DNA from: Isosphaeraceae bacterium
GTDB taxonomy: Bacteria > Planctomycetota > Planctomycetia > Isosphaerales > Isosphaeraceae
Length of the DNA stretch: 51,324 nt
Direction of reading: 5' to 3'
Assembly: GCA_025356475.1 (NCBI GenBank)
Contig: JANXSX010000211.1
Span: 1-51,324 of the forward strand
Part shown: piece after piece, positions 10,501-50,757 of the stretch
Layout: each line of letters opens with the position of its first letter
Position numbering within the stretch: the stretch's first letter is position 1
The notes under the pieces: model-generated
Database searches by the model: none
Told to the model about the DNA's origin: nothing
Seen by the model: only the letters and a program-made list of their open reading frames with translations
Program-made: the position numbers and the translations under genes

Positions 10501-10535
10501 AGCGCGGACCTCCACGGTCGGTCAATCGGGAAAGG

Positions 10536-11399: not shown

Positions 11400-11406
11400 T
11401 GGGGTA

Positions 11407-17351: not shown

Positions 17352-17398
17352 CGCGTACGCCTCTCTCCGTTCGCAGACCCGAACTGCTTTCGCCGCGA

Positions 17399-19441: not shown

Positions 19442-19547
19442 AGTGCTCGACGACCTCTCCTCAATCTCGGATGCAAATCGGGGCGACACGTATTACGAGC
19501 GGCGGCACGGCAACAAGGTGCCATCGAGCTTCGGGGTCGAGCGTCCG

Positions 19548-22300: not shown

Positions 22301-22509
22301 CGCGAACGCTCCACTCCAGGGATGGGTTGAATCGAGGAGCCCGAACCACGCGATGATCCCACGCCAGCTAGCACAGCTGCAGAGATCGTTCACGTCGCCC
22401 CGGCCTTCGAGAGCGTTCTCGTCGCATACTATTTCGACCACGACGGTATCAAGTATGAGAAATCAACGGTTGCGGCCGGTCAAGAATATTTCGTGGAATT
22501 CGTCCGGAT
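22301..22509 (-). promoter_or_regulatory. Presumed upstream control region of the nine-gene operon
   Basis: No gene seen between the kinase-like start and the insertion sequence. On the minus strand a TTGACC (about 22483-22478) with CATACT 20 bases beyond is a poor promoter match, so the promoter is only presumed here. The IS1-like element begins about 210 bases upstream of the operon and may have separated it from its original control region. Confidence 0.25.
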
Positions 22510-22520
22510 AGGCGAATCGG
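22510..22520 (+). repeat. Left 11-bp direct repeat of IS1-like element
   Basis: The 11 bases AGGCGAATCGG occur here and again at 23751-23761, bracketing 1230 bases that contain one transposase gene. This is what a target-site duplication looks like, although IS1-type elements usually make 8-9 bp. Confidence 0.7.
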
Positions 22521-26738: not shown

Positions 26739-29700
26739 TTATGCCCGTCCGAGTCCAAGACCTGGGGCGAACGAGCCTCGAATTCGCTCAACCTGGCGCC
26801 CCTCCGGGGCGTCCGGCCCCCCGGACAGAATCGAGGGTGAGTTCAAGCGTTCTCCGGTTTCCATCCGCTCGCGGATGCGGGCGGTGACCGGCCGCTCGGC
26901 CGTTACCGCCTGAGTCGGTCTCCGCTCGGGAGGCGGGGCCTCGACAACCCGCACATCCAGGAGCAAACGGATCCGTTCCGCCAGCTCATGGCTCGGTCGT
27001 TCGGGAACCGCATCGGTTCTGGCCTGTCCCGGAACCGGCTCGGCCAAGGCGATTCGAAGAGCATCACGCAGTTCGGTCAATTCGCCTCGTCGGGCCTCAT
27101 GCGGGAACACCCGCCCCAGGCGATCCTGATAGTCGGCCAGTCGCCCCCTCGCCATGTCCAGCTCGCGACGGACCTCGTCGCACGCCGCCTCGGCACCGTC
27201 GAGCAGGCGATTGACCGCGTTGATCACGGCGCGCGGCCCGTGGGCCTCGCGTGACAGGGTCACGCGCCGAGTGGCAACCCCTTCGAGGTAAACATCGGGC
27301 GAGCCGCGCGGGTGCATCACGATGCCGAATTCCAGCCCCCGCGCCCGTCCCAACTCAAACCGCCGGGTCGCGAGAACCAGCTCAGGAATCGCCTCAAGGC
27401 GGTCGCCGAGCACGCCCATAACTTCCTCGCGGCGGCAACGCCGACCGCCGATCGCGATCGGATCGTCGGCATGGTCCTGGGCCGTGATCAGGTCGGCCGT
27501 CAAGCGTTCCAGGCGCTCTTCGCGATCGGCGATCATCTCGGGCAATTCGCGGATGTTGCGGCGGGCCAGGAACTGCTCGTCGGCGTGGCCTCTTGCCAGG
27601 ATCGCCAGCCTCTGCAATTCGGCGTCGGCTTCGGCCAGGGTCAGTACCGCCGGGTTCCCCGACGCGATCGCCTTGACCTCGGCGTAGGACAGCTCCTGGC
27701 CCCCGACGTCCTCGGCACGACGCACCGCCACGTCACCCGTCATGACCTGTGCGATGAACCGCGCCTTGGTCTCCAAAGCCTGCCACATGTAGGCGTCGAA
27801 TGAACCCTCAGTGACGTAGCGATAGATGGCCACTTCATCATTCGTGTTGCCTTGCCGCAGGATCCGCCCTTCACGCTGTTCGACCTCCGCCGGCTTCCAG
27901 GGGGCATCGAGGTGGTGCAAGGCCACGAGCCGCTTCTGGACGTTGGTGCCGGTGCCCATCTTCTGGGTGCTTCCCAGCAGCACCCGCACCGAACCGCTGC
28001 GGACCTTGTCGAACAGCGCCTGCTTCTTGGCGTCGGTGTCGGCCTCGCCGACCGTGGCGATCTGGTCGCGGGGTACGCCCTGCTGCGCGAGTTTGGCCGT
28101 GACCTCGTCGTAGGCCGAGTAGCCCCAGGGAGTGGGGTTAATTCCCATATCGCAGAAGATCAACTGCACGCCTCGTGTCGCTGTTGTCCGGCTCCAGATC
28201 GCGGCAACGTTGGCGACCAGGGCGTTGACCTTGGAGCCGGGGTGGTCCGGTGCGGTGGCGGCCAGCATCCGGGCATCGAGTGCCAACTTGCGGCCGTCGG
28301 TGGTGATTGCCAGGGCGTTGTCCTCGCGGGGATCGACCTTCTCGGAGCGAATCCGCTCATAGCGGTCGATCAGGCCGCGTTGCAGCACTGCCTGCTCGTC
28401 GGACATCGGGCAAGCGACCACGAATGGCTTGCCCCCTTGCAAGGCTGGCCGGGGCAGGTCGAGTTTCTCGGCCGTCTGGACGTCGGAGAACGCCCGGAAC
28501 ATGGCCTGGAGTTCGGGGATGTTGGTGAACTTGGCGAACCGGCTGCGAGGCCGCAAGCTGGCCCCGTCGGGGGAGATTTCCATCGCGTCCACGACCTCGC
28601 CGAAGGTGGCGGCCCAGGCGTCGAAGTGTTCGAGGCCGCGCGACGCCAGCCCCTCGGGGTCGAGGAACTTCTGCATCGTGAACATCTCGACCATCGTGTT
28701 CGAGATCGGCGTGCCGGTGGCGAACGTGACGCCGTGGCCGGGGTGACGCTCACCGAGATAGCGGGCTTTCATATAGAGGTCGAAGGCCCGCTCGCTGCCG
28801 CCGGTCTGGATCCCCGCGACCCGATCCATCTTGGTCGGGGTTTCGAGGTTCTTGAAGTAGTGCGCCTCGTCCACGAACAGGTGATCGACGCCCAACTCGT
28901 CGAACACCAAACCGTCGTCCTTCTTGGCCTCGGCCAATAAATCGTGGAGCCGCTCTTCGCGTCTGGCCTTCTGCTTCTCGATCGTCTTGATGAGGTTTCG
29001 CTGCGTCCCCGTGCGGTCGCCGGAGCGGGCCGACTCGACGAGCAACGACTCGTACTCGGCGACTTGCTCGCGGAGGAACCGGGCCTGGTAGTCGCGACTC
29101 ATGCCAATCCGCTCGAATGAGCTGTGAGTCGTGACGATCCCGTCCCATTCGCCGCCGGCGATCTTGGCGGTGAGCGACTTCCGCCGCTCCCGGGTCATGT
29201 CCTCCTTGGAGGCGACCAACAACCGAGCATCGGGATAAAGCTGCACGAACTCCCTGGAGAACTGTTCGAGCATATGATTGGGCACGACGAACAGCGGCTT
29301 GCGGATCAGCCCCGCCTGCTTCATCTTCATGCCCGAGGCCGCCATCGTGAACGTCTTGCCCGCGCCCACGGCGTGGGCCAGGAGCGTGTTGCCGCCGCTC
29401 ATCGAGCGCCAGATCGCGTCCTTCTGGTGGGGCCGCAATTCGATCGCACGGTTGAGGCCGGGGAATTCCAGGTGCGAGCCGTCAAAGAGCCGGGGCCGGA
29501 GGTTGTTGTAGGTGTCGTTGTAGACCCGAACTAAGCGTTCGGCCCGCTCCGGTTCGGCGAAGACCCAGGAGCGGAACCGTTCCTTGATCCGCTTCTGCTT
29601 CTCCTTGGCGGCCAGAGTCTCTTCTGGGTTCACGACCCGCTCCTCGCGGCCGCCGCCGCTCAAGACGGTGTCGTAGATCGCGGGCGTCTTGAGGTTCAAG

Positions 29701-31787
29701 GCCTGGTCGAGCAGGGTCACGCCGTTGGCGCGGGCCGTGCCGTAGTCGGCCGTGGCGGCGACCGACTGAACAGCGGCGTAGCCCGCCTCCAGGGTCCAGA
29801 CGGCGTCCTTCTTGAGGTGGCCGACAGCGATCGCCGAAGCCGGCACTCCGAACAAGTCGCCGGCGAAGGCGGCGATATCCGACTCGGGGATCCAGGGGGC
29901 ACCCAGGTTGGCGTCGATGTCGCCGGGGAGCACGTCCTCGGGCTGGACGGCCTGTAAGGACACGATGTTTCGCGCATACTCTGGTCCGGCCCGTTCGGCG
30001 GCGGCCAGCTTGGCCCGGACATTGCCCGACAAGTACGCATCGGCGGTCTCCCAGGCCCCGGTGGCCGGGTCGCGATAAATGAGGTCGCCCAGTTCTCGGA
30101 GAATCTGGGCCTCGTCGCGGCCGTAGAGGGCCGCGATGTAGGGGAGATCAACGGCTCCGCGTTGATCGAGCGAGGCGAGCAAGCCCGCCTCGGCGCTGGT
30201 CACCTCGGTGAGTGGTGGCGGCCGGCCGACCACATCGCGGAGCAAGATCGCCGCCTTGGTCGCCTTGCCCGAAGTTTCGTCGTAGTCTTCCAGGGCCATG
30301 ACCAGCATGGCGTCGGGGTCTTCGCGGAACTTGACCAGGTTGGGCATGCGGCGAATCGTCCCTCCCTGCTGCGTCGCGGTGAAGGTTGTCTTGTTGATTG
30401 GGCCGTGGGCCGCGACGAAGCGGTCGTAGGCCCGGTTGAGGTTGCGGCGGGCCTCGTCGCGATCCGCGTCGGGCCAGTCCTCGTTCTGGGACTGCAAGAC
30501 CCGGCGCGCCAGGTCGCGTAAGCCGATCAGCGAGGCGAACCGGCGAGCATTGGCGGTGCCGTCGGCCCGTAGGGTCGTGCCCCAGTAGATGACGGGCTCA
30601 GGACGGCCGGCCGTGACCTGATAGAGGACACGATCCTCGCCGACGAAGAAGCCGCCTTCGGTCACCAGCCGCTCGGACGGGGGCGGAGTGAAGGTCGAGA
30701 TCGGTTTGGATTTTGCGACGACGGCCGTCGTCGGAGCCCACTCAGGCAAGCGACGGATTGCGGCGTCGAGCAACGCGGCCAGGTCGCCGTGGCTCGTGAG
30801 GCTATAGCCGCCCTCGCCACCGTAGAGCCGATCCTGGCGGCTCCAGGTGCCCAGCACCTGTTCGGGATGGTTGAGGAAGTAGCGGTTGATCGCCACCTCG
30901 ACGCCTTCGATGGTCAGCGGCCCGGTGGCAAGCCAGGCGGGATCGGCGTGGTTCGGTTCCTGTCCAGAGGCACGCTTGCGGAGGATCAGGATGTCGGTGA
31001 CGACCGCCGTGCCTTCACGTTTGAAGGCGTCGGAGGGGAGGCGAATCGCCGCCTCGAAATCGGCCCGTGCGCCGAGGAATTCGCGGACGGCGGCGTTCTG
31101 CTTGTCGAGCGTGAAGTGGCTCGTGACCAGGGCCAGGACGCCACCGGGCTTCAAGGCATCAAGCGACTTGGCCAGGAAGAAGTCATGCAACGGCATCCGC
31201 AGGCCTTGATAGTCAAACTTGACGTCGGCAAAGGGGGGGTTGCCGATCACGGCGTCGAGGCCCCCCTCGGGCAAGCGGGTGTCGCGGAACGATTCGATGC
31301 GGATGTCATAGGCGGGGTAGAGCACGCGGGCGATGCGGCCCGAGATCGCGTCCAGTTCGATCCCGATGAATTTCATGTCGGGCGCGGCCTGAGCCAGGAA
31401 ATTCCCGCTCCCGCACCCGGGCTCCAAGACGGTCGCATTGCGGGGCACGCCGAGCCGTTGTAGGGCGGCGTGCATCGCCGCGACGACCACGGGCGAGGTG
31501 TAGAAGGCGTTGAAGACGGTCTTCTTGGCGCTGGCGTATTCGTCGGCGGTGAGGACCTCTTGCAGGGCCTCACCCAGCGCTTGCCAGGTCGCGTCCTTGT
31601 ACGTTCCCGTGACCGGGTCGGGGAACAGGACCAGGGCCACGGGTCCGAACCCGGAAAACCGTCGCAGGGCGTCGCGTTCCTCCTCTGTGGCGGCCCTACC
31701 CTCGGCCTCGATCCGCTTCAGGGTGCGGATCGCGTTGAGGATGTCGCGGGCTTTGCCCTTCTCGCCCGATGAGATCGGCGGCGACAT
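26739..31787 (-). CDS. Giant N6-adenine methylase / SNF2-type helicase protein
   Basis: About 1682 residues. The N-terminal part has an adenine-N6 methyltransferase core: SAM motif LEPGCGSGNF at 121-130 and catalytic NPPF at 182-185. A superfamily 2 helicase follows: Walker A GAGKT at about 807, DEAH box LFVDEAHYFKNL at about 970, motif III ATGTPISNT, and motif VI QREGRILRQGN near 1307. A coiled-coil region follows. Such proteins are common on plasmids and conjugative elements and are thought to modify or protect entering DNA; the precise role is not settled. The frame is open back to 32345, but that extension runs through the well-formed small gene at 31922-32233, so I use ATG 31787. No good ribosome site is seen there, and residues just before it have coding-like GC3, so the true start could be a little upstream. 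Confidence 0.82.
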   Translation of the reverse strand: MSPPISSGEKGKARDILNAIRTLKRIEAEGRAATEEERDALRRFSGFGPVALVLFPDPVTGTYKDATWQALGEALQEVLTADEYASAKKTVFNAFYTSPVVVAAMHAALQRLGVPRNATVLEPGCGSGNFLAQAAPDMKFIGIELDAISGRIARVLYPAYDIRIESFRDTRLPEGGLDAVIGNPPFADVKFDYQGLRMPLHDFFLAKSLDALKPGGVLALVTSHFTLDKQNAAVREFLGARADFEAAIRLPSDAFKREGTAVVTDILILRKRASGQEPNHADPAWLATGPLTIEGVEVAINRYFLNHPEQVLGTWSRQDRLYGGEGGYSLTSHGDLAALLDAAIRRLPEWAPTTAVVAKSKPISTFTPPPSERLVTEGGFFVGEDRVLYQVTAGRPEPVIYWGTTLRADGTANARRFASLIGLRDLARRVLQSQNEDWPDADRDEARRNLNRAYDRFVAAHGPINKTTFTATQQGGTIRRMPNLVKFREDPDAMLVMALEDYDETSGKATKAAILLRDVVGRPPPLTEVTSAEAGLLASLDQRGAVDLPYIAALYGRDEAQILRELGDLIYRDPATGAWETADAYLSGNVRAKLAAAERAGPEYARNIVSLQAVQPEDVLPGDIDANLGAPWIPESDIAAFAGDLFGVPASAIAVGHLKKDAVWTLEAGYAAVQSVAATADYGTARANGVTLLDQALNLKTPAIYDTVLSGGGREERVVNPEETLAAKEKQKRIKERFRSWVFAEPERAERLVRVYNDTYNNLRPRLFDGSHLEFPGLNRAIELRPHQKDAIWRSMSGGNTLLAHAVGAGKTFTMAASGMKMKQAGLIRKPLFVVPNHMLEQFSREFVQLYPDARLLVASKEDMTRERRKSLTAKIAGGEWDGIVTTHSSFERIGMSRDYQARFLREQVAEYESLLVESARSGDRTGTQRNLIKTIEKQKARREERLHDLLAEAKKDDGLVFDELGVDHLFVDEAHYFKNLETPTKMDRVAGIQTGGSERAFDLYMKARYLGERHPGHGVTFATGTPISNTMVEMFTMQKFLDPEGLASRGLEHFDAWAATFGEVVDAMEISPDGASLRPRSRFAKFTNIPELQAMFRAFSDVQTAEKLDLPRPALQGGKPFVVACPMSDEQAVLQRGLIDRYERIRSEKVDPREDNALAITTDGRKLALDARMLAATAPDHPGSKVNALVANVAAIWSRTTATRGVQLIFCDMGINPTPWGYSAYDEVTAKLAQQGVPRDQIATVGEADTDAKKQALFDKVRSGSVRVLLGSTQKMGTGTNVQKRLVALHHLDAPWKPAEVEQREGRILRQGNTNDEVAIYRYVTEGSFDAYMWQALETKARFIAQVMTGDVAVRRAEDVGGQELSYAEVKAIASGNPAVLTLAEADAELQRLAILARGHADEQFLARRNIRELPEMIADREERLERLTADLITAQDHADDPIAIGGRRCRREEVMGVLGDRLEAIPELVLATRRFELGRARGLEFGIVMHPRGSPDVYLEGVATRRVTLSREAHGPRAVINAVNRLLDGAEAACDEVRRELDMARGRLADYQDRLGRVFPHEARRGELTELRDALRIALAEPVPGQARTDAVPERPSHELAERIRLLLDVRVVEAPPPERRPTQAVTAERPVTARIRERMETGERLNSPSILSGGPDAPEGRQVERIRGSFAPGLGLGRA

Positions 31788-31921
31788 GACGGGCGGTGCC
31801 CGGGTGTCGCTGGGGAGCTGCGGGGCCGGTCCGGGACGTCGTTCCGGGATCGGGACCGGTGGTTGGTCGCCGGGGCGAGACTCGCGGAACGCCAGGAACC
31901 CATGCCCCGCGGACCGTGTGG

Positions 31922-32233
31922 CTACCCGCGCGGCGTGTGCATCTTGAGGAACGCCATCGCGGCGTCGAGGTTCGGCAAGTCCTCGGTCGCCTCGGCTGCG
32001 GAGGAAGCGCTCGACAAATCCGTCCGTAGGTCGCGGATCGCCAACTCCAGCGCCTCCGCTGTTTGTTGCTCGGGCGAACTCTCCGGCCTCGACCGTTGGA
32101 TCTCGGCCATCCACGATTCGTGGGCCGCCTTCAGGAGCGTCGTCTGTCGCTCCAGATCGTGTAACGTCGGCCGGCCCGTCGCCGGGTCGTAGTGTTCCTT
32201 GAGCAGTTCCAGGGTGATCGTCTTGTAGAGCAT
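31922..32233 (-). CDS. Small helical protein upstream of the helicase-methylase
   Basis: A 103-residue soluble, mostly helical protein starting MLYKTITLELLKEHYD. I do not know its function; proteins with this opening often precede large helicase-methylase genes on mobile elements. ATG 32233 is preceded by AAGGAGG five bases away, the best ribosome site in this region; this decides against ATG 32266 and against reading the helicase frame through this stretch. Third codon positions are strongly GC, as in real genes here. It ends 134 bases before the helicase-methylase start and is probably co-transcribed. Confidence 0.7.
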   Translation of the reverse strand: MLYKTITLELLKEHYDPATGRPTLHDLERQTTLLKAAHESWMAEIQRSRPESSPEQQTAEALELAIRDLRTDLSSASSAAEATEDLPNLDAAMAFLKMHTPRG

Positions 32234-32659
32234 TCGGGCCTCCTTCGGGGCGAGTTTCACGGCCATCGCCCACCGTCGTCCGGGGATTCCGGTCGTCGAG
32301 GAATCCCGGTAGGAACGGGGTCGGAGTTTTCGGGCCTCGGGGCATCGCGCGGCGGTTGTTTCTTTCGTTGGTGGATTCGCAATCTCACATACCTATATCA
32401 TGACGCGAACGCCGTCGCAACCGTTTCGGACGAGGATCCTGCGCTCGCTTCCATGGCGGATCATCACAGCAGGAGTCGCAGCGCATGAACGCCGGCTAGA
32501 AACAGTCGCATCCATGAGCCCGATGCACTGCAACGCTTGTCTCCTGAATCGTAGGATCGAACGGCACGTCGTTGACGTTTCATGGAATCCGCATGTCACG
32601 TGAGAGCCCCGGGACCGACGCGGAGCCCTCTGGGTATCTCGGTCAGGCGGGCTCGAGAA
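32234..32659. other. 426-bp intergenic stretch without a gene
   Basis: No convincing ORF on either strand. It holds a perfect 8-bp inverted repeat (32283-32290 GGGATTCC and 32300-32307 GGAATCCC) with a 9-base loop about 50 bases before the small gene, possibly an operator. A short AT-rich patch (about 32385-32402) could hold a promoter. Nothing else seen. Confidence 0.4.
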
Positions 32660-33664: not shown

Positions 33665-35824
33665 TCATCGGTCTAGGGGCACGACGAAGACCCCGCCGCA
33701 CTTCGGGCAGGTCAGTTCCTCGCCGTCGTAATCCGAGGGCAGAGAGTCCGTGTTCTGGCATTTGGGGCAGACCGCATGCGTGGGGCGGGCCTTGACCGGC
33801 GGCGGGGCGTGCCCCCGTCCCGCGACGGGCATTCGGCCGGAAGGTTGAGGCGGCGGAACCTGCCGGGTGGGTGTGGGAGCCTGCGAGTTGGTGAAAGATT
33901 GGGTGTTCCAAGCTCCGGGTCTCGGTGGGTCGGCAGGAATCCGGGCGAACCATGCGCCGGGCCGCACATGCTGGCCCGCGAAGTTGAGGCAAATCACGAC
34001 GCCGACGGCGGCGAAGAGATACGAAACCAGCGAGGTCGGGCGGGGCGTGGATGCCGCCAATCCCGGGTCGAGGTCGGCATCCTCGTAGTAGGTGAGCCGC
34101 GAGCCCAGGATGGGGCTGCGGCCCTGCTGGAGGATGAAGACGCCATTGCGTTCCCGGAGGACTTCCTCCGGCTTGATTAATTCGCGCTGGATCGGCCCGT
34201 GGCTCACCCCGCGCGACGTGCCGGTCGACCGGCTGACCCTCTCCGCGAAGCTGGTCCCCGAGTTGAAGCCGCTCTGATAATTGGGGGCGGCGACGGTCTG
34301 CGTTCCTATATATTTCGAGATATAAGTCGCCGTATCGATGTCGGACACGCCGAAGAATTGCTGGATGCCGCAATTGGAGAGGATCACCTTGGCCCTGGGC
34401 CCTGGGAATGCCACTTCGAGTTGTGCCAGGGATTGGACGATGAACCAGAGCCGGAGGCCGAAGCCCCTCAAGAGGGTGATGGCGTGCTCCAGACTCTGGA
34501 TTTCCCCGAGCTGGGCCACCTCGTCCAGCATGAGCAGGATCTCATTTTCCTCGCTCGCCCCCGCCTGCTTGACCACGAGCAGGAACGAGTTGATCCACAG
34601 GAGCATTAAGCGTGAATGGCTGAAGATGTATTGCGCCGGGAGGATCAGGTAGACCGAAGTCGGCGTCTTGGCGATCGACCGGATCGGGAACGAGGTCGCA
34701 GCCGTGTTGGCGCGGATCAGGGGAGAATCCAGGAAATTCGTGTGCCGATTCGCGGACGAGAGGACCGACCCGAACTCCTTCTCCGGCATGGAGAGGATGG
34801 TCCCCGCCGCGCGGGCCAGCATGCCATCGAGGGCATCGGACCCCTTCATGAATTCGAGGGCGGCCTGTAGCTCCTCCTGGTCGCTCAAGGTGAGGCGGAC
34901 CTTGTCGAGCGTGCGTTCCTCCCCTTTGCACTCGACGACGACCAGGAGGATGACCGCGTAGAGCAGGTTGCTCGCCGATTCGTTCCAGTGGGGGTCCGTG
35001 TCCTTCGCGGTGCGGATGACGAGTGCGTCCGCCATTGAGCGGACGTCTTCCATCAGCGTCGGGCTATCGACGGCGATGAGATCGAGGGGGTTCAGGGTCG
35101 AGGATGTCTTGCCGCTGATCCCGAAAGGATCGAGGACGACGATGCGCTGGCCGTTCGCCTTGCGATGTTCCGCCGTGAGCTTGAAGTTCTCCCCTTTTAC
35201 GTCGGTGACGACCACCGAGTTGGGATAGTTCAGGAGGTTGGGCACGACCGTGCCGACCCCCTTGCCCGCCCCCGCCGGTGCCACGGTGATGATGTTCACA
35301 TATTGCCGGGGCGGCACGCGGATGAGCGGGCCTCCGCTCGAACGCGAAAGATTGATCCGACCGCCCGTGATCGCGGTGATGAATCCCCGGCAGATGGAGT
35401 CGGAGTCGGCGAGCGATCCCGTGATGAGTTGAGTTAGGGCCTCGAAGAAGCTCGACTTGTGTTCTCGGTATCGGCCGAGCAAGAGTCCTTCGGCCCCGAA
35501 GAAGCCGTCCGCCTGGAGTTCCGTCGCCTTGGCCCATCGGGCGGAGCCATGCACCGTGCCGAACCGGAATCGGCCGCGATTCCAGCACCAGAGCAGGGTG
35601 AAGGCGATGGCGACCTGATAGATCATCGACAGGTTATAGAGCCAGAATCCCCCGTAGACGAATCCGCCGACGATGGTGATCCGCGCAAAAATCGGGATGA
35701 CATTGCCGTTGAGGAGCCAAGGCGCGACCTCGTTGACCCGTTCTTTGAATCGAGCATTCACAATACAGTATTCCCCCATGTCTATCGGTGAAGAAGGCCC
35801 GACATTGTCATCGCTCGTGCTCAT
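33665..35824 (-). CDS. traG: Type IV coupling protein (TraG/VirD4-like) with C-terminal zinc ribbon
   Basis: A 719-residue inner-membrane ATPase that would bring the relaxase-DNA complex to a secretion channel. Two hydrophobic segments lie at about 43-62 and 68-82. Walker A VAPAGAGKGVGTVVPNLL is at 181-198 and Walker B LLMLDEVAQLG at 430-440, both diagnostic for coupling proteins. Beyond the normal end there is another hydrophobic segment near 610-625, a Pro-rich linker, and a zinc-ribbon tail with CPKC and CPKCGG (about 690-712), which is unusual for the family. No VirB-type channel genes are in the window. ATG 35824 overlaps the preceding gene by 17 bases; an ATG at 35779 is possible. Confidence 0.9.
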   Translation of the reverse strand: MSTSDDNVGPSSPIDMGEYCIVNARFKERVNEVAPWLLNGNVIPIFARITIVGGFVYGGFWLYNLSMIYQVAIAFTLLWCWNRGRFRFGTVHGSARWAKATELQADGFFGAEGLLLGRYREHKSSFFEALTQLITGSLADSDSICRGFITAITGGRINLSRSSGGPLIRVPPRQYVNIITVAPAGAGKGVGTVVPNLLNYPNSVVVTDVKGENFKLTAEHRKANGQRIVVLDPFGISGKTSSTLNPLDLIAVDSPTLMEDVRSMADALVIRTAKDTDPHWNESASNLLYAVILLVVVECKGEERTLDKVRLTLSDQEELQAALEFMKGSDALDGMLARAAGTILSMPEKEFGSVLSSANRHTNFLDSPLIRANTAATSFPIRSIAKTPTSVYLILPAQYIFSHSRLMLLWINSFLLVVKQAGASEENEILLMLDEVAQLGEIQSLEHAITLLRGFGLRLWFIVQSLAQLEVAFPGPRAKVILSNCGIQQFFGVSDIDTATYISKYIGTQTVAAPNYQSGFNSGTSFAERVSRSTGTSRGVSHGPIQRELIKPEEVLRERNGVFILQQGRSPILGSRLTYYEDADLDPGLAASTPRPTSLVSYLFAAVGVVICLNFAGQHVRPGAWFARIPADPPRPGAWNTQSFTNSQAPTPTRQVPPPQPSGRMPVAGRGHAPPPVKARPTHAVCPKCQNTDSLPSDYDGEELTCPKCGGVFVVPLDR

Positions 35825-39040: not shown

Positions 39041-39958
39041 TCAATGCTGGGTGTTGGCATCCTGGCCGGTAAGGGGCAACGCTGAATCGCCGTTTTGGAG
39101 CTTTTCCTTAGCCATATCCTCTCGAAGCTTTTGAAGGAGTATTTCGAGGGCTTTCAACATGTGCTCTTGAGTACGTGGCGTTCCTGAATTCGTCGATACA
39201 AGGGTCAGCTTCTTGGGCGACACTACGGCCTCGAAACCAGACAAGTTCTTGTAGGTGAATTTGTCTTTGGACTTCGGCCTGCCTTTCTTCACCTTCGGAC
39301 TCAGCATCCGGCGGACCAATTTCTGGGTCTGCTCGGAGTTCAAACCTTCCGCCTTCACCCTCTCCCAAGCGGCGAGTTGAGCAGCCACGTCGGGAAGACG
39401 GACCAGTTCACGGGCAACCCCCGGACTGAGCTTGCCGGCGCGAATGTCGGCCTTCAGGTCATTCGGGAGGGCGAGTAGCGAGATCGCTCGAGTGATCGTC
39501 GTGTGAGAAACATGGATGTGGCCGGCAAGCTCGGTGGCATTCCAGCCGTGGAGATCCATCACCTTCGCGTATGCCTGGGCCTGATCGATGGCGTCGAGAT
39601 CTTCCCGTTGCTGGTCAATCGTCAGTTGCACGAGAGCGATCTGCGCCGGGGTCGGCTTGAAGGAGAAGACCAGAGCATCGAGTGAAGGGTATTGTGCCAG
39701 TTTCGCGGCGCGGAATCGCCGCTCGCCGTCGATGATGACGTGCTTGCCGCGCTCCTTGTCGTAATAGACCATAATGGGGACGATCTGGCCGGTGCCCTTC
39801 AACGACTCCGCGAGGCTCGCCAGTGCCCCTTCCTCGAAGTTGGCGCGGATTTGGTCGTCGGCGTAGATGTCCTCGAGCCGCAAGTCCATGAGCGTCGCGG
39901 CCGGCCCGTCGGTCCCGCCGTTTGCGAGTGAAGTGGGGCTAAAACGTATGACGTTCAT
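39041..39958 (-). CDS. parB: ParB/Spo0J-family partition protein
   Basis: A 305-residue protein. The N-terminal ParB/sulfiredoxin-like CTPase domain has IVPIMVYYDKERGKHVIIDG then GERRFRAAKL (about 75-90), the box used for nucleotide binding. A helix-turn-helix follows (WNATELAGHIHVSHTTITRA, about 137-156). The C-terminal 90 residues are basic, then helical. The start ATG 39958 has a perfect GGAGGA ribosome site. No parA is adjacent: the only ParA gene lies 4 kb away with its own ribbon-helix-helix partner. It may therefore act as a regulator or with a chromosomal ParA. No standard parS palindrome was spotted. Confidence 0.87.
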   Translation of the reverse strand: MNVIRFSPTSLANGGTDGPAATLMDLRLEDIYADDQIRANFEEGALASLAESLKGTGQIVPIMVYYDKERGKHVIIDGERRFRAAKLAQYPSLDALVFSFKPTPAQIALVQLTIDQQREDLDAIDQAQAYAKVMDLHGWNATELAGHIHVSHTTITRAISLLALPNDLKADIRAGKLSPGVARELVRLPDVAAQLAAWERVKAEGLNSEQTQKLVRRMLSPKVKKGRPKSKDKFTYKNLSGFEAVVSPKKLTLVSTNSGTPRTQEHMLKALEILLQKLREDMAKEKLQNGDSALPLTGQDANTQH

Positions 39959-39999
39959 GGATTCCTCCTCTCTGGGTATCTCGTCGGCCCGGGCGGTGC

Positions 40000-40061
40000 G
40001 TGCCACTGGCACAATTCAAAAAAGCGAGTCTCATCGATTCCCCAAAGCTACGCTTCGGGGA
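40000..40061. promoter_or_regulatory. Palindromes between divergent parB and relaxase genes
   Basis: GTGCCA-C-TGGCAC is a perfect palindrome at 40000-40012. A hairpin TCCCC-A-AAGC/GCTT-C-GGGGA with one mismatch and a three-base loop lies at 40039-40061. The position between divergent parB and relaxase genes fits an operator, or part of the transfer origin used by the relaxase; no nic site was recognised. Confidence 0.4.
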
Positions 40062-40116
40062 GATGTCTGTCAAATTTTATCTTGTCTTCGAGGACTGCCC
40101 TGATATCGTGGGATTT

Positions 40117-42925
40117 ATGCTACGGATTACCACGATGCGGCATTCGGGACAAGCAAAAAGCTACTACACGCAGGCGTTGGCTTGCGAGGACGGCGTGAGC
40201 CGCGAGGGCTACTATTCGGAGGGGCAGGAATCCGTCGGGGTGTGGGGCGGGAGAGGGGCCGCAAGGCTTGGGCTCTCCGGGGTCGTGGAGCAGCGGCAAT
40301 TCGACGATCTTTGCGACAACAAGAATCCCAACTCCCCCTCCGGCGAACATCTCACGCCTCGGACTAAGACCGCTCGGCGGGTCGGGTACGACATCAATTT
40401 CCACTGCCCCAAGAGCGTGAGCCTCTATTTCGAAATGACCAACGACGGCCGGGTCCTCGCCGCATTCCAGGATGCGGTCCAGGAGACCATGCGCGAGCTT
40501 GAGGTCGAGACCCGGACACGCATCCGCCTCGACGGCCAGGACTCGACCCGGAAGACATCGGAACTCATCTGGAGCACGTTTATCCACCACACCGCGAGGC
40601 CCGTGGGCGGGGTTCCCGATCCCCACACCCACGCCCACATCGTCTGCTTCAATGGGACGTATGATGCGGTCGAGGGCCGATGGAAGGCGATCGACATTTC
40701 CGACATCAAACGGGATGCGACTTACTACGAGGCCGCGTTCCACGCGAGGCTCGCGGGGACGCTCCAGTCCGCCGGGTTCGCCATCGAGAAGACCGCCGGG
40801 CGTTGGGAGCTGGCCGGCATCGGCGCGGAGACGCTCGGCAAGTTCCAGGAGCGGACCCAGCTCATCGAGCGGATGGCCGAAGAATTCGGCATCACCGACG
40901 ACGCCGAGAAGGATGCCCTCGGGGCGAAGACCCGAGAGGCGAAGATCAAGGATCTGACCCGACCCGAGCTGCGCGAGGTCTGGCAGCGGCGGATGACGCC
41001 GGGCGAGCAAGCCGCCCTCGAAGCCGTCGGCCGGGGAGAAGTCACGAGCCCCACACCCGCGACGTCGGCCCGTCAATCGCTCGACTATGCCAAGCTCCAC
41101 GGATTCGAGCGGGAGAGCGTGATTTCCGAGAAGCGGTTAATGGCCCACGCCCTCCGTCATGGCGTCGGCTCGGTCTCGGTCGAGGAGGTCCATCGCGAGA
41201 TCGAGCGGCCCGGCAATGGGCTGATAACCCGCGACGTGGGCGGTCAGAGGCTCACGACCTTGCCCGCGATCCTCGCCGAAGAAAAACGGATGCTCGCCTT
41301 CGCCCGCGAGGGCCGGGGCACCTGCAACCGGCTGGCGGCGGGCCGGGAGATCGCGGGCACACTGCTCTCGGCCGAGCAACGGGCGGCCGTGCGTCACGTC
41401 TGGGATTCGCGCGACAGGGTCATGCTGGTCCGCGGCGGGGCCGGGGTCGGCAAGACGACACTCATGAAGGAAGTCGTGGCCGGGATCGAGGAGCACGGGA
41501 CGAAGGTTTTCGCGTTCGCCCCCTCGGCCAGCGCCTCCCGGGGGACGCTCCGCGAGGAGGGCTTCGCCGGGGCCGACACCCTGGCCTCCTTGCTCCAGGG
41601 TCGCGAAGCCCGGGAGCGGGTCAAGGGCGGGGTGATCTGGGTCGATGAGGCCGGGCAGATCGGCACGCGCGACCTCGCCAGGTTGTTCGAGATCACCGAG
41701 GCCGCCGAGGCCCGCGTGCTGCTGACTGGGGACGTCCGCCAGCATGGCCCGGTGGCCCGGGGGGACGCGATGCGGCTCCTCCAGGAGCGATCGGGCTGCC
41801 ACGTCGCCGAAGTCCTGGAGATCCGGCGTCAAGCCGGGGCCTACCGCGAGGCGGTCAAGGCCCTCGCGCGCGGGGACGTCGAGGCGGGATTCCGCAAGCT
41901 CGACGAACTCGGCTTCATCCGGGAGGTCGAAGGAGAGGAACGCCATCGGCGGATGGCGGCCGATTACCTCGCGGCCCTCAAGGGGCACAAGGAGAACAAG
42001 AACGAGGCCCTGTGCATCGCCCCGACCCATCGCGAGGGGGCGGCCCTCACGGCGGAGATCCGCCGGGGCCTCAAGGAGCAGGAACGTCTCGGCGACGGCG
42101 AACGCAAGTTCGCCCGGTACACCAATCGTTCGCTCACCGAGGCCGAGCGGGGGGATGCCGTCCATTACGAGGCGGGCGACACGGTCCAGCTCGTCCAGAA
42201 CGTGAAGGGCTTCGCCCGAGGGGAGCGCCTCACGGTCGCGGGGCGCGACGAGTCGGGGGGCGTCTTGGTCGCCCGGCCGGGGGGTGCGGTCGTGTCGCTC
42301 CCCCTGGGCCAGGCCGGGCGACTCCAGGTCTACCGGACGGGGGAGCTGCCGATCGCCCCGGGGGAGTGCCTCCGCGTGACCCAGAACGGCTACTCCAAGC
42401 CCGGCTTCCTCGGCCGTAAGCACCGGCTCAACAATGGCGACCTCTTCACCGTCAAGGGGTTCACCGCCGACGGAGACCTCAAGCTCACAAACGGCTGGGT
42501 CGTCGCCAAGGACTTCGGGCACTGGGATCACGGCTACTGCCAGACGAGCTATGCCAGCCAGTCGCGAACCGTCAAACGGGTCTTCGGAGGAGAGCTTGCC
42601 GGCGACCGACCTGCGGGCCTTCTACGTGTCGGTGAGCCGGGGGAAGGCCGAGTGTCGGATCTACTCCGACTCGAAGGAGGCCCTCTTCGAGCGGGTTCGC
42701 CGCAGCGACGAGCGGCTCTCGGCCGTGGAGTTGCTCGCCGGGGAATCGCGCGGCGGCTCGCCGCGGCTCGCGCGGCTCCGCGAGCTGGCCGAGCAGAACG
42801 CCCGCCTCAAGGCCCGCGAGGGGGCCTGGGCAGGGCGTCCGGTTGACGGCCCGAGAGGATTCGATCGCCCGGCGGGCGTGCCTGTGAAGGAAGAGGCGAA
42901 TCGGGGGCCGGCGTATGAGCGATGA
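40117..42925 (+). CDS. MobF (TrwC/TraI-type) relaxase-helicase, frameshifted near the C-terminus
   Basis: A conjugative relaxase. Tyr16-Tyr17 near the start are the nicking tyrosines, and HTHAH (His170, 172, 174) is the metal triad. A RecD-like helicase follows: Walker A GGAGVGKTT at 440-448, Walker B VIWVDEAGQIG at 506-516, then LLTGDVRQHGPV. The reading frame breaks at GG 42586-42587, just after ASQSRTVKRV; removing one G restores EESLPATDLRAFYVSVSRGK, the expected helicase motif VI end, and the frame continues to 42925 (about 935 residues). Unrepaired, the first frame ends at 42846 with unrelated residues. If real, the break would remove the last helicase motif but leave nicking intact. 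ATG 40117 is chosen because TrwC proteins start at this point. Confidence 0.85.
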
Positions 42926-43336: not shown

Positions 43337-43378
43337 ATGCCGCAAGCCCAGAAAGCCAGCTTTCTGGGCTTGCGGCAT
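43337..43378. terminator. Perfect 19-bp hairpin after the relaxase operon
   Basis: Two perfect 19-base arms (outer part ATGCCGC, inner part AAGCCCAGAAAG) enclose the loop CCAG. It begins 17 bases after the stop of the plus-strand gene. There is no T-run, so it may be a bidirectional terminator, a DNA-binding site, or both. The inner core is shared with the hairpin at 43554-43601. Confidence 0.65.
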
Positions 43379-43553: not shown

Positions 43554-43601
43554 CGAAAGCCATAAGCCCAGAAAGCCGGCTGTCTGGGCTTATGGCTTTC
43601 G
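43554..43601. terminator. 22-bp hairpin after the ribbon-helix-helix gene
   Basis: Arms of 22 bases with one mismatch (G at 43582 in place of T) around the loop CCGG. The outer stem (CGAAAGCCAT) differs from the first hairpin, but the inner AAGCCCAGAAAGCC core is the same. It starts five bases past the stop of the minus-strand gene at 43606, mirroring the first hairpin's position relative to the plus-strand gene. Confidence 0.65.
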
Positions 43602-43605
43602 GCGA

Positions 43606-43983
43606 TTACTTCCGATGGGTTTCGATGTAGTAGCGGACCGCCCTCTCGACATATTCGCCGGGCTGGATCATCTCGGCATAGGCCAGCCGGTAGAACTGAT
43701 CCCGGAGCGTCTCCTCGATCGAAAGGGTGACTTTCGTCTTCTCCCCTTTCGAGGCAATCGCTTCCTCCTTCTTGGCCCTCGGCCGACCCTTGATGCCTCC
43801 GACCTTCTTCGGGGTGTTGGTCCCTTCTCTGGGCGTTTCTGACGGGTCCGACTGGCGCTCGACCTGGGCCGGGATCGCGGGGGCGGACTGTGTCGGTTCG
43901 GCCGGTCGTTCCTTGCGTTCCTGATCGCGCGAGACGAGGTCGCCCAGGACCCCGCGAACCCCTTCTCCCTTTTTATTTGCCAT
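43606..43983 (-). CDS. Ribbon-helix-helix DNA-binding protein, ParA partner
   Basis: A 125-residue protein. The first 80 residues are disordered and charged; residues about 82-125 form a ribbon-helix-helix domain (KTKVTLSIEETLRDQFYRLA, then GEYVERAVRYYIE). The gene overlaps the 3' end of parA by 11 bases. The layout (small ParA followed by a ribbon-helix-helix protein with a flexible basic N-terminus) matches type Ib partition systems such as ParF-ParG, where the second protein binds the centromere and stimulates the ATPase. The repeats and hairpins around it are candidate binding sites. Confidence 0.75.
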   Translation of the reverse strand: MANKKGEGVRGVLGDLVSRDQERKERPAEPTQSAPAIPAQVERQSDPSETPREGTNTPKKVGGIKGRPRAKKEEAIASKGEKTKVTLSIEETLRDQFYRLAYAEMIQPGEYVERAVRYYIETHRK

Positions 43984-44716
43984 CGATGACTCCTTTCAAT
44001 TTATCGAGGACGGCCCGATAGTCTTCCATGGCGTTGGACCGCTTCAGACTCAAAATATTCCCATCTGTCGTTGCATACATCAAATCCGCCTCGGCCCGCA
44101 CGCGACCGAGTACGGGATAGTGGCGGCTCACTTCCTGGTCCACCTGGTCGTTGATCCTCCGGCGGTGCTGGCAGTTGGTGAGGATGACGCCTGCAACCGC
44201 TAGCGTGGGGTTTACCTCCAGCTCTCTCAATTGCTCCAACACCTCGATGAACCGGGCGAGTGCCCTCATCTCGTACCCGCCCGGATGCAGGACGATCACG
44301 ACGTGGGACGCGGCGGCCAGCGTGTTGGTCGAGAGCACGCCTAGCGACGGTGGGCTATCGACGAGGATGAGGGTGCCTGGTGGAAGCGGCGTCTTCTGGA
44401 GGCAAGCCCGCAACAGGTTTTCCCTCCCGGGTTGGGAGACGAAACGCTGCTCGCCGCTCGCGAGGTCGATGCTCGACGGCGAGAGCGTGAGGTGGTCGGT
44501 GATTTCGACGATCGGGAGTGGCCCCCGTGTCGCCAACGCTTGGTAGAGTTGCCCGCCCGGGTCTTCTTTCCCGAACGTGCTCGTGAGGCTCGCTTGCGGG
44601 TCCATGTCGATGAGATGGACCCCCCTGCCCTGCTGGCTAAGCAACGTCCCGAGGGCCGCGACGGTGGTCGTCTTCCCGACCCCGCCTTTCTGGTTGGCGA
44701 TCACGATTACCGGCAT
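43973..44716 (-). CDS. parA: ParA-type partition ATPase
   Basis: A 247-residue ATPase of the small ParA/ParF class, without the N-terminal helix-turn-helix of long ParA. The deviant Walker A KGGVGKTT is at residues 10-17, HLIDMDPQAS at about 34-43 is Walker A', and LILVDSPPSLG near 116-126 is Walker B. It would form ATP-dependent patches or filaments on DNA to segregate the plasmid. The ATG 44716 has AAGGAG 11 bases upstream. The 245-bp divergent region before it contains several CCCAGAAAG-type repeats. Confidence 0.92.
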   Translation of the reverse strand: MPVIVIANQKGGVGKTTTVAALGTLLSQQGRGVHLIDMDPQASLTSTFGKEDPGGQLYQALATRGPLPIVEITDHLTLSPSSIDLASGEQRFVSQPGRENLLRACLQKTPLPPGTLILVDSPPSLGVLSTNTLAAASHVVIVLHPGGYEMRALARFIEVLEQLRELEVNPTLAVAGVILTNCQHRRRINDQVDQEVSRHYPVLGRVRAEADLMYATTDGNILSLKRSNAMEDYRAVLDKLKGVIDGK

Positions 44717-45960: not shown

Positions 45961-47409
45961 CTAGGCGACGGGTGGGCGATCTCGGGTGGCGAGGATGTTT
46001 CGGATGAACTCTTGCCTGCGGAGCGTCCGGGCCAGGCTCCTGAACGCCCCGGTCTCCATCGCCAGGGTGGCGGGGTCGGCTTGGGCTCGCGCGGCCGAAT
46101 CAAGCGCCTCCTGCTGTTCCGGGCTCAGGGAAGCCCAATAAGCTTCGATGGCCCCCCGCTCGGTCTTCTCGCGGGCCTTTTCTTCGCATTCCTTGCGACG
46201 ATCTTCGGCCACCTTTCGTTCCCTAGCTTGCTTGGCTTCCTTTTGCTGCTGGCGCTCGGCCGCGGAAACGAAGCCCTTCGGGGCCTTGTAGTCGTCGATG
46301 ATGGATTTGACGAGATACCCCTCCGGACTCCGGGCGACCCGCTTATCCTGCTTCTCCAGGAGCCAATCGAACACGTCGATTTTCGCCTCGATCTTCGCGG
46401 CGGGGTGCTTGCCGACCAATTCGGCTGCCGTCTTGCCCGTGACTCCTCGCTTGGTGAGTTCGATCACGAGGGCAGGGCGGTCGGCCTCGGGGGTCTCCTG
46501 TCGCGGATCGCTCGTCGATTCGACGACACCGGCGGAATTCAGGATCAGTCGGATTTTCCACCCCTTGCCGTCTTTAGGAAACCGTTTGGAGTCCGGCAAT
46601 CGCGTGAGGAACCCGATCGATTCAAGCTCGCTGATGGCCGGTTGCAATTTCCGCTTCAGGTGGGCAGGGCCGTCGTAATTGCGGCCCAGGCCGATATGCT
46701 CGCAAGCGAACTCTTTGAGGGGGAAGGTCCAATCCGCCCGATGATGGAACCGCTTGTCGAGGAAGCGATACATCCTCTTCGCGGTGGAATTGCTCAGTCC
46801 CATGCACAAATCGTAATCCAGGGGTTTCAAGTACCCGGCCTGGAAGCTCTCGAAGATGACTTCGTTCCACACGATGAATGAAGGCATCAGATCGAGTTGG
46901 GCGTCGTCGGCCCGGAAGTCGTTCAGCTCGAATCGATCGAGGATGTGGAACCCGGCAGATTTCCAGGATTTCGTGCGATTATCTCGCCAAGCATTCTCAT
47001 ATTTCAAATAAACGCTCGTCCATCGATCCAATGCGGTGGCGATCCTCTCATAGCTCGCCCCGCCCATGCTCCATCTCAACAACTGAACCAGTTCATAACG
47101 ACTGAATTCGAGCCTTCTTTGGGTGAAGTTGTTTTTCTTCTTGGTGAGTTGAATTAAAGATAAGATGACTTCATCATCCAAGGCCGTGGTGAGGCCGTGG
47201 TTCCCGGCCGTGATCGTCAGTTTCCGCGTTAGGGTGAGCCCGCTTCGCTCGTCGTGAATTTCATCCTGATAGATAGCCTCTTGCTGGTTTTTGGGCACGC
47301 GGTCCGTCAGGAGGGCGATGGGGAACTCGGCGAGGTTCATCTCGTCGCGCCCAAGCAGCGCGAGAGCTTTGTGTGGCAGGTTCGGGCGGATGTCGTCGGT
47401 TGATTTCAT
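45961..47409 (-). CDS. repA: Plasmid replication initiator (RepA/RPA family)
   Basis: A 482-residue initiator. Features typical of the replication initiator A family include KNQQEAIYQDEIHDE, the helix-turn-helix-rich RRLEFSRYELVQLLRWS and the second winged-helix region YRFLDKRFHHRADWTFPLKE, LKRKLQPAISELESIGFLTR. A C-terminal extension contains a coiled coil (AERQQQKEAKQARERKVAED). It would bind iterons at the origin and load the replication machinery. ATG 47409 has AAGGAGA 11 bases upstream. Repeats directly upstream (47538-47633) are the presumed origin. The presence of this gene marks the region as a plasmid or an integrated plasmid. Confidence 0.87.
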   Translation of the reverse strand: MKSTDDIRPNLPHKALALLGRDEMNLAEFPIALLTDRVPKNQQEAIYQDEIHDERSGLTLTRKLTITAGNHGLTTALDDEVILSLIQLTKKKNNFTQRRLEFSRYELVQLLRWSMGGASYERIATALDRWTSVYLKYENAWRDNRTKSWKSAGFHILDRFELNDFRADDAQLDLMPSFIVWNEVIFESFQAGYLKPLDYDLCMGLSNSTAKRMYRFLDKRFHHRADWTFPLKEFACEHIGLGRNYDGPAHLKRKLQPAISELESIGFLTRLPDSKRFPKDGKGWKIRLILNSAGVVESTSDPRQETPEADRPALVIELTKRGVTGKTAAELVGKHPAAKIEAKIDVFDWLLEKQDKRVARSPEGYLVKSIIDDYKAPKGFVSAAERQQQKEAKQARERKVAEDRRKECEEKAREKTERGAIEAYWASLSPEQQEALDSAARAQADPATLAMETGAFRSLARTLRRQEFIRNILATRDRPPVA

Positions 47410-47537: not shown

Positions 47538-47633
47538 CCGGCCCCGGATGACAATAGGACCGGCCCCGGATGACAATAGGACCGGCCTCATCTGACGAAC
47601 CGGGCGGGCAACCGGCCTCGGATAACAAGTCTG
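47538..47633. repeat. Iteron-like repeats, presumed oriV
   Basis: Two perfect tandem 22-bp units (47538-47559 and 47560-47581), each starting CCGGCC and containing TGACAATAGG, are followed by degraded copies starting at 47582 and 47612. They lie beside an AT-rich stretch and immediately upstream of rep, the classical layout of an iteron-type replication origin. Confidence 0.68.
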
Positions 47634-48872: not shown

Positions 48873-49509
48873 ATTCCCGCACCGTTTCGATGCCGATGGC
48901 TTTGCCTCTAAAAGAATCAAAGTATGAATTGTCGCCGTCAAGATGTCGGCATGTTGCACTACAAATCATGTCTGCAAGTTGAATGCGGAGGTCTGACTTG
49001 GACTTTCCTGGTTTGACGCTTTTGATGAACTTCCGCGTCTCTTCGGAGTGGGATGAGATGCTGTTAAATGCAGACTGCAATGAAGATGTGTATTTTTTAT
49101 CATTGCATTCGTCGTAGATAACCCTTTCGCTCACTTTATTTCCGCTCCTGGCGAATTCCAGGTAGTGGCCGGTCAGGAGACGAACCATGCCCTCGATCGT
49201 GGACGCGATAATCCGCTCCTTATCAAGAAAGTCTCTGTTGAACTGATCCTTGTCGAAGTTCTGGAAGGCGAAGCGAAATGGCAATTCAGCAACGGCTTCA
49301 TAGAACCGAAGACGTTGGGGGTGACTGATCTTCGCAAAATGAAATTCAAAATCCTGGGATATGTTCATCTGAACTTTAAGATCGCCGATTTTGGCGATAT
49401 ACTGCTCAACATCCTCCATCGAGCTGAACCATACGGCAACCAGTCGGAAGTGCCGTGCCGATTTCACGCCGGGACCTGAGTCCCCGGACTCGTCGATGAA
49501 CGTTGGCAT
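48871..49509 (-). CDS. DUF3800-like protein
   Basis: A 212-residue protein starting MPTFIDESGDSG, the signature opening of DUF3800, an RNase-H-like fold family of unsettled function often found in accessory and defence regions. Further acidic residues are in VIYDECNDKK and QLADMICSA, which could complete a metal site. The open frame extends 54 codons upstream without family support, so I start at ATG 49509. Codon use is AT-richer than in the plasmid backbone. It converges with the plus-strand terminator at its 3' end. Confidence 0.8.
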   Translation of the reverse strand: MPTFIDESGDSGPGVKSARHFRLVAVWFSSMEDVEQYIAKIGDLKVQMNISQDFEFHFAKISHPQRLRFYEAVAELPFRFAFQNFDKDQFNRDFLDKERIIASTIEGMVRLLTGHYLEFARSGNKVSERVIYDECNDKKYTSSLQSAFNSISSHSEETRKFIKSVKPGKSKSDLRIQLADMICSATCRHLDGDNSYFDSFRGKAIGIETVRE

Positions 49510-49695: not shown

Positions 49696-49729
49696 CTAGG
49701 CGGAAATAATCCCCTTTATTTCCGCCTAG
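49696..49729. repeat. 34-bp lox/dif-like palindrome before the recombinase
   Basis: Perfect 14-base arms (CTAGGCGGAAATAA and its complement) flank a six-base centre TCCCCT. It lies 47 bases upstream of the tyrosine recombinase start. Arm and spacer sizes resemble XerCD/dif or Cre/lox sites, so it is a candidate crossover site; a transcriptional operator is the alternative. Confidence 0.6.
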
Positions 49730-49776
49730 GGGCGTGGTACTGTTCCGGCGAACACAATCCGCCCCGGATGATACTC

Positions 49777-50757
49777 ATGTCCACCGAAATCGTCCCGATC
49801 ACCGGCCAAGCCGTCGTCGCATCCAACGGTGTGAACGCTTTGCCGTCGCTGGTGGAGCAGGGGGGCAACGCGGCCCGCTTCGCATGGGACGAATTCTTTT
49901 ATGCCGAGCATCACAACCCGCACACGCAAAAGGCGTACATGGCGGCGGTGAAGAAGTTCCTCGCCTGGTGCGAAGGGCAGGGGCTGGAGCTACTGACGAT
50001 CACGCCCGGCCTGGTGGGGCAATACCTCGTCGGCCTGGGCGGCTCGGCCGCCAAGCGGAACCTGCACCTGGCGGCGTTACGCGGCTTCTTCGATCGCCTG
50101 GTGCAACGGCACGTGGTCATCCTCAACCCGGCCGCGTCGGTGCGGGGCGTGAAGGATACCGTGATGGAAGGCAAGACGCCGGAGATCACGATCGATCAGG
50201 CCCGCACGCTGCTGGCCTCGATCGATACCAGCCATCTCCTTGGTTTGCGGGATCGGGCCGTGCTCGCCACGCTGGCCTACACCGCCTGCCGCGGCGGGGC
50301 GGTGGCCAAGCTGCGGTTGCAGGATTTCCAGAGCGACGGCAGCCAATACGTGCTGCGGTTCCAGGAGAAGGGCGGCAAGAGCCGCGAAATCCCGGTACGG
50401 CATGACCTGGAAGGCTTCATCCGAGCTTATCTCGATGCGGCGAAAATCGAGATGGAGGGCAAGGATTCACCGCTGTTCCGGGCAGGCAACGGCCGGACGA
50501 AGCGGCTGACCGGCAACGCGATGTCGAGCAAGGTAATCTGCGAGCTGGTCAAGCGGCGGCTGAAGGATGCGGGCCTGCCGTCGCGGCTATCGCCGCACAG
50601 CTTCCGCGTGACGGCGATCACCGACTTATTGACTCAGGGTGTGCCACTGGAGGACGTTCAATACCTCGCCGGGCACGCGGAGCCGCGTACCACCGGGCTT
50701 TACGACCGGCGACAGAAGAAGGTGACGCGGAACATCGTCGAGCGGATTTCAATCTAA
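49777..50757 (+). CDS. Tyrosine recombinase (XerC/D-type integrase)
   Basis: A 326-residue recombinase. The N-terminal SAM-like core-binding domain (about 45-125) includes HTQKAYMAAVKKFLAWCEGQ. Catalytic residues are Arg172 in YTACRGGAV, a Lys in QEKGGKSRE near 198-202, His274 and Arg277 in SPHSFRVT, His300 in AGHAEPRTT and Tyr309 in LYDRR. All are intact. A role in plasmid dimer resolution or integration is likely. ATG 49777 is used, with GGA about nine bases upstream; ATG 49768 is equally possible. The 34-bp palindrome just upstream is a candidate site. Confidence 0.88.
   Translation: MSTEIVPITGQAVVASNGVNALPSLVEQGGNAARFAWDEFFYAEHHNPHTQKAYMAAVKKFLAWCEGQGLELLTITPGLVGQYLVGLGGSAAKRNLHLAALRGFFDRLVQRHVVILNPAASVRGVKDTVMEGKTPEITIDQARTLLASIDTSHLLGLRDRAVLATLAYTACRGGAVAKLRLQDFQSDGSQYVLRFQEKGGKSREIPVRHDLEGFIRAYLDAAKIEMEGKDSPLFRAGNGRTKRLTGNAMSSKVICELVKRRLKDAGLPSRLSPHSFRVTAITDLLTQGVPLEDVQYLAGHAEPRTTGLYDRRQKKVTRNIVERISI

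Follow-up and report, generated by a model that had tools for sequence, protein, structure and literature searches.

The window, that is, the whole stretch of DNA analysed here (51,324 bases), is an entire contig, C4, of a 5.9 Mb genome in 232 contigs. It contains a perfect palindrome followed by a gene for a tyrosine recombinase, among the following features:

33665–35824, minus strand: type IV coupling protein (T4CP; TraG/VirD4)
39041–40012, minus strand: ParB
40000–42846, plus strand: TrwC/MobF (MOBF) relaxase with a helicase domain
43973–44716, minus strand: ParA-like partition ATPase
45961–47409, minus strand: replication initiator protein A (RPA), RepA-type
49696–49729, plus strand: 34-bp perfect palindrome, proposed crossover site, CTAGGCGGAAATAA-TCCCCT-TTATTTCCGCCTAG, format 14-6-14
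49699–49726, plus strand: inner 28 bp of the site, GGCGGAAATAA-TCCCCT-TTATTTCCGCC, dif format 11-6-11
49710–49715, plus strand: asymmetric 6-bp centre TCCCCT, proposed overlap region
49777–50757, plus strand: tyrosine recombinase, 326 aa, Xer-like

Taken together, the genes for RepA, ParA, ParB, the relaxase and the coupling protein indicate that the contig represents all or much of a plasmid of the conjugative type. As the contig end adjoins an IS1595 transposase fragment, the contig may be less than the whole replicon; in the subset of window proteins scanned with Pfam, this fragment was the only transposase match and no Tn3-family transposase was found.

By its sequence, the enzyme is a member of the tyrosine recombinases (phage integrase family), with Pfam matches to Phage_integrase (PF00589, E = 6.7e-21) and to a SAM-like N-terminal domain (2.5e-6). 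The preliminary description had reported a recombinase with all catalytic residues present, and we indeed found the gene intact and its R-K-H-R-H-Y set complete: R172, K198, H274, R277, H300 and Y309, the residues that form the catalytic set in tyrosine recombinases, are invariant in 14 aligned homologs and again in 36. The nearest curated families among the NCBIfam profiles are XerC and XerD, at scores of about one third of their equivalog cut-offs (114.3 of 335.15 and 111 of 329.6 bits), and the nearest solved structures by sequence are archaeal Xer (4a8e, 3.5e-13) and XerD (1a0p, 4.8e-11); Cre was not matched in this PDB sequence search at E 1e-3. An AlphaFold2 model (36 alignment rows, mean pLDDT 87, pTM 0.64) compared with the Cre-loxP chains gave, in the best alignment, Z = 19.9 and an rmsd of 5.0 over 268 residues, followed by archaeal Xer (Z = 19.5, rmsd 8.7, 251 residues) and XerH-difH (Z = 17.5, rmsd 4.5, 261 residues). 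A modest pTM, together with high rmsd values, suggests uncertainty in how the model places its two domains relative to each other. Other contigs of the same genome encode two proteins distantly related to the enzyme (34% and 31%), plus a third match that is shorter.

The palindrome lies where the preliminary description had put it: perfect 14-bp arms and a six-base centre at 49696–49729, separated by 47 bases from the ATG of the recombinase gene (49777), could all be confirmed. The bases just outside the arms, T and G, are unpaired. Markov shuffling of the window, repeated 60 times, never produced a perfect palindrome having arms of 14 bp and a loop of 0–12 bases; the 28-bp pattern, searched with its centre left free, is present once in the window and in 0 of 100 shuffles. 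With its 28 bp, 11-6-11 arrangement and TAA/TTA borders, the window site has the format of dif-type sites; instead of the near-terminus chromosomal location of such sites, its contig carries RepA, ParAB and relaxase genes. Because arm symmetry across the family stops ~13 bp from the centre, the 14th base pair is private to the window copy, and the natural unit of the site is the 28-bp 11-6-11 core. By analogy with Xer and Cre, we infer that the TCCCCT centre would be the overlap region that sets direction. A lone exact 12-bp half-site, CTTTATTTCCGC, is located at 49134–49145 (plus strand) within a DUF3800 gene; it could be an accessory site or have arisen by chance (0.16 matches expected in shuffles, one mismatch allowed).

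We then asked how widely such a site accompanies related recombinases, using 108 loci: the best 80 of 547 relatives on genome contigs, 18 from 392 genomes of the phylum (window included) and 10 picked among 45 listed plasmid or phage matches, a set that may hold duplicates between the genome-contig and phylum-genome sources. Under the strict criterion, a site had to be bordered by TAA/TTA and to show symmetry at 7 or more of its 11 arm positions. Such sites were present within 800 bp upstream of the gene in 51 of the 108 loci, as compared to 9 of 2160 shuffled upstream regions, within 830 bp downstream in 3 of 107 loci, and never inside the gene. The palindrome, on whose conservation near related recombinases the preliminary description had made its proposal depend, is thus conserved. 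To look at the arms free of selection, we used a criterion blind to them, the exact string ATAA-NNNCCT-TTAT on either strand, which returned 63 sites in 62 of the 108 loci, 62 of them upstream and one downstream of the gene, at a median distance of 130 bp. At the seven outer arm positions left unselected, mirror symmetry reached 59–94% depending on position (27–59% expected from composition), and 75–94% (27–40% expected) at the four positions adjoining the core; it falls to 32% at the 14th position. The family format is about 11-6-11 to 13-6-13. The centres were CGTCCT (41 sites), TCCCCT (6), CATCCT (5), CGCCCT (4), TGTCCT (4) and three others seen once each; the asymmetry of the centre, already pointed out for the window, recurs as the conserved NNNCCT throughout the family. 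Judging from record titles, the site-bearing loci belong to Planctomycetota, Acidobacteriota, Verrucomicrobiota, Armatimonadota, Pseudomonadota and Myxococcota.

Among close relatives of the enzyme (75–84% identical) with enough upstream DNA, all six (L024, L025, L026, L035, L036 and L038) have a site, with arms related to those of the window in five; L037, for which 76 bp of upstream sequence were available, is not among the six. On the Aquisphaera plasmid pOJF2_1 the site reads GGCGGAAATAA-TCCCCT-TTATTTCCGTC and lies 588 bp upstream of the gene. In L036, L038 and the Paludisphaera plasmid PALBO1, the centre TCCCCT is framed by altered arms (ACGGGAA, GCAGGAA and GGGGGAA) that are still fully or almost symmetric, and PALBO2 combines the arm GCGGTAA with the centre CGCCCT. 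The sole site of L035, whose enzyme is 84% identical, is 1.8 kb upstream with the arm GTATCCG, and may belong to another enzyme. Beyond the recombinase family, a search for the exact core ATAATCCCCTTTAT yielded little: 11 matches in 10 of 384 phylum genomes (control, 3), with full arm symmetry only in the window's own copy and 5/7 in one other. In viral contigs it occurred in at least 120 stretches, and none of the 80 inspected exceeded 5/7, so these sequences gave no sign of the TCCCCT variant travelling on known viral contigs.

Site and enzyme are also inherited together. On a tree of 119 distinct proteins (identical ones, those with a stop and those below 270 aa excluded), 80 homologs have a site under relaxed criteria applied without a shuffle control, and 39 have none in the available upstream flank. 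The enzyme tree requires 8 changes of the arm base next to ATAA and 11 of the third centre base; the corresponding minima over 100 shuffles were 25 and 17. Part of this signal would be expected from linked inheritance alone. That each changed arm is still mirror-symmetric, however, points to selection by one dimeric DNA-binding partner, which suggests a cognate site bound by one recombinase; the proposed pairing of a lox/dif-like site with the recombinase is thus supported by both its retention near relatives and the co-inheritance of arms and enzyme. On the 43.9-kb contig G419:C41, two recombinases each have their own, different site with 7/7 symmetry. Covariation between residues and arms gave clade-level signals only (e.g., residues 36, 111 and 289 with arm position 7); the data were partly read in reversed orientation, and no specificity code was drawn from them.

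Within the 5.9 Mb genome, the second copy that the preliminary description had proposed to look for was not found: allowing up to 3 arm mismatches, there is a single site, which lies on the replicon beside its recombinase. We also scanned 506 kb of complete plasmids or large parts of them, window included, in which four rounds of shuffling gave one match overall. PALBO1, pSINAC03, pPL17-1 and pSM-4 have one site each, adjoining the enzyme gene; pSINAC01 (50 of 54.7 kb) has its own site, with a score of 16, and another match of equal score; PALBO2 and pOJF2_1 have two each; and pEP7_03, which also carries a phage terminase gene, has only a weak site and none at threshold. In PALBO2 (L025), the two dif-like sites (19326 and 21908) differ in their arms, share the centre CGCCCT, are in direct orientation and flank the recombinase gene in a cassette-like manner. 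Four plasmid-size contigs of another genome (G418; contigs C3, C5, C6 and C7, loci L331–L335) carry near-identical ACCGGACATAA-CGCCCT-TTATGTC sites, reminiscent of pdif modules. The idea that co-resident plasmids always differ in their centres was dropped, as it holds for the P. borealis pair and is false for G418, where CGCCCT is common to all four.

Many relatives of the enzyme are encoded on plasmids. A plasmid collection gave 1504 matching records, and in 430 of them the match covered 80% or more of the query. The best matches were PALBO1, PALBO2 and pOJF2_1 (77–79% identity), followed by Isosphaeraceae EP7, Frigoriglobus and many plasmids of proteobacteria; Singulisphaera ranked lower. 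Of 45 genomes from the taxonomic family of the source genome, 19 contain ATAANNCCCTTTAT, with 40 occurrences in all as compared to 8 of the reversed pattern, and 19 of the 30 matches whose arms were inspected have at least 5/7 symmetric outer positions. All core matches in the genomes assigned to Aquisphaera and Singulisphaera fall on the plasmid contig and none on the chromosome. Homologs on chromosome-sized contigs (L009, L010, L038, L064, L067 and L080) are unexpected under a plasmid-only role and speak against it, as does a broken relative of the enzyme on the Singulisphaera chromosome. A phage record, Aphanizomenon phage Yong-DA (L033, ON073792.1), encodes a relative of the enzyme at 36%; with O-antigen genes around a plasmid-type recombinase and site, this record looks more like a plasmid or phage-plasmid.

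Based on these observations, the palindrome is probably the crossover site of the adjoining recombinase, and the pair a self-contained dimer-resolution unit of a conjugative-type plasmid; its best reading, by analogy, is a unit that would work like Cre/loxP with Xer-like parts. The evidence is by sequence: the site, the enzyme, their upstream linkage, mirror-symmetric co-variation and a single copy in the genome. Dimer resolution agrees with the presence of one enzyme, a partition system and a lone symmetric site in one copy per replicon, because a second site arises only in a dimer, where recombination would give monomers. Two copies of the enzyme would bind the two mirror-image arms of the site; when homologous recombination or replication produces a plasmid dimer with two directly repeated sites, four protomers would synapse both. 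Y309 would then cleave the DNA where the asymmetric 6-bp centre meets the arms, and strand exchange via a Holliday junction would release two monomers, which ParA/ParB would partition.

Plasmid fusion is a serious rival, although we consider it unlikely: the enzyme might mainly fuse and separate co-resident plasmids with matching sites, as does IntA of Rhizobium etli between p42a and the symbiotic plasmid. IntA, a tyrosine recombinase encoded on a plasmid, uses a palindromic att site of 23 bp, and its integration and excision in vivo have been reported (PMC4928290). On p42a, a one-base variant of this att site lies ~108 bp upstream of an integrase gene (1339–2487), which we infer from the att-like site beside it to be intA; as in the window, a single plasmid-borne recombinase thus follows a palindromic site, and the inner arm TCCGATAA is common to the IntA site and that of pSINAC03. 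The near-identical sites of G418 would likewise suit cointegration, and these, together with the second sites of PALBO2 and pOJF2_1, would also permit fusion or cassette exchange. On the other hand, the genome studied here has one site only, the co-resident P. borealis plasmids differ in centre (TCCCCT and CGCCCT), and the IntA-like enzyme is just 28% identical over 201 residues (E = 7e-9), in the catalytic part only. The IntA site, moreover, is 8-7-8 rather than 11-6-11, with a different centre, and its described role is cointegration.

That the enzyme is an integrase inserting the plasmid into the chromosome is highly improbable. Some homologs and sites do lie on chromosome-size contigs, but the genome has no second site within 3 mismatches, the Aquisphaera and Singulisphaera chromosomes lack core matches and that of Paludisphaera has a single one, with poor symmetry (4/7); chromosomal integration was therefore rejected as the main role. 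Equally hard to believe is a purely regulatory palindrome, an operator or promoter element for autoregulation of the recombinase gene, with recombination taking place elsewhere; a promoter element alone was the alternative named in the preliminary description. Almost all sites precede the gene, 37 of the 62 upstream ones within 200 bp, and binding may have a regulatory role alongside recombination. Distances, however, range from 7 to 1915 bp, sometimes with genes in between, upstream sites have their asymmetric centre in the minus (42) or the plus (20) orientation, no sigma-70-like promoter was found at the site, and a conserved, asymmetric 6-bp centre is needless for an operator spacer. Least credible is an invertible switch, in which the site and an inverted copy would flip the DNA between them: the format permits it and G418 contig C5 has two similar sites in opposite orientation, but no second copy exists in the window or genome in either orientation within 3 mismatches, and inversion was rejected for this genome as assembled. 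Of the two roles first put forward, dimer resolution or inversion, the former thus appears better supported, with one cognate site, a plasmid backbone and no chromosomal copy, and the latter falls away for want of a second site.

Among known systems, Cre/loxP of P1 combines one enzyme with one site per replicon near its gene and resolves dimers. The window pair resembles it in this arrangement and in predicted fold; loxP has the format 13-8-13, unlike the 14-6-14 of the window and the shorter formats of its family. The dif site of XerCD is 28 bp long, laid out 11-6-11 with TAA...TTA inner borders, a format that the window site shares, and the window enzyme matches the XerC/XerD profiles best; unlike XerCD/dif, the window pair appears to involve one enzyme and symmetric arms, and the scores of its enzyme are far under the equivalog cut-offs. 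As in XerS/difSL and XerH/difH, a single Xer-like enzyme is present, yet those pairs are chromosomal, whereas the pair described here is mostly on plasmids and its arms diversify between plasmids. Linkage of site and gene is as in XerS, whose site is reported to be genetically linked to its gene (PMC5357621).

This is a known kind of system in an apparently undescribed family. Four 14-mers representing the family's core sequences were not found in the running text of the papers searched, none of the titles and abstract beginnings returned by literature searches pointed to this recombinase-site family, and no recombination experiment on it was found there. We tentatively suggest, as a possibility short of an even chance, a cross-phylum family of plasmid resolvases with a fixed ATAA-NNNCCT-TTAT core and freely evolving mirror-symmetric 7-bp arms, which would give plasmids recombination identities insulated from one another. 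If so, its enzymes and sites would form a natural library of orthogonal pairs, a source for reading out the code by which tyrosine recombinases recognise DNA, and plasmids of shared identity, as in G418, could exchange or fuse. Tyrosine recombinases are common on plasmids and mostly without an assigned role; a clustering study found no further support for a plasmid-resolution role among the recombinases it compared with Cre (PMC3414803). A candidate site can now be paired with the enzyme by sequence for about two thirds of the distinct homologs under the relaxed criteria and for 51/108 loci under the strict, controlled ones, so that a large group of 'integrase' annotations gains a concrete, testable function. 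Such enzyme/site pairs could be used to test orthogonal recombination and to stabilise vectors for planctomycetes.

Other parts of the window also deserve mention. A run of large minus-strand genes at 8749–23693 may be an unknown system; among those scanned, none had Pfam or PADLOC matches except a dynamin-like GTPase at 17399–19489. At 26739–32345, an 1868-aa fusion joins an N6 methyltransferase part to a helicase part of the SNF2 type; defence models of DISARM, BREX and mad2 match it weakly. Near RepA, a 22-bp unit is present in two perfect tandem copies (47538–47581). Between the relaxase and ParA genes lie two long near-perfect palindromes (43337–43378 and 43554–43601), both containing AAGCCCAGAAAG, and related motifs recur at 44823 and 45196.
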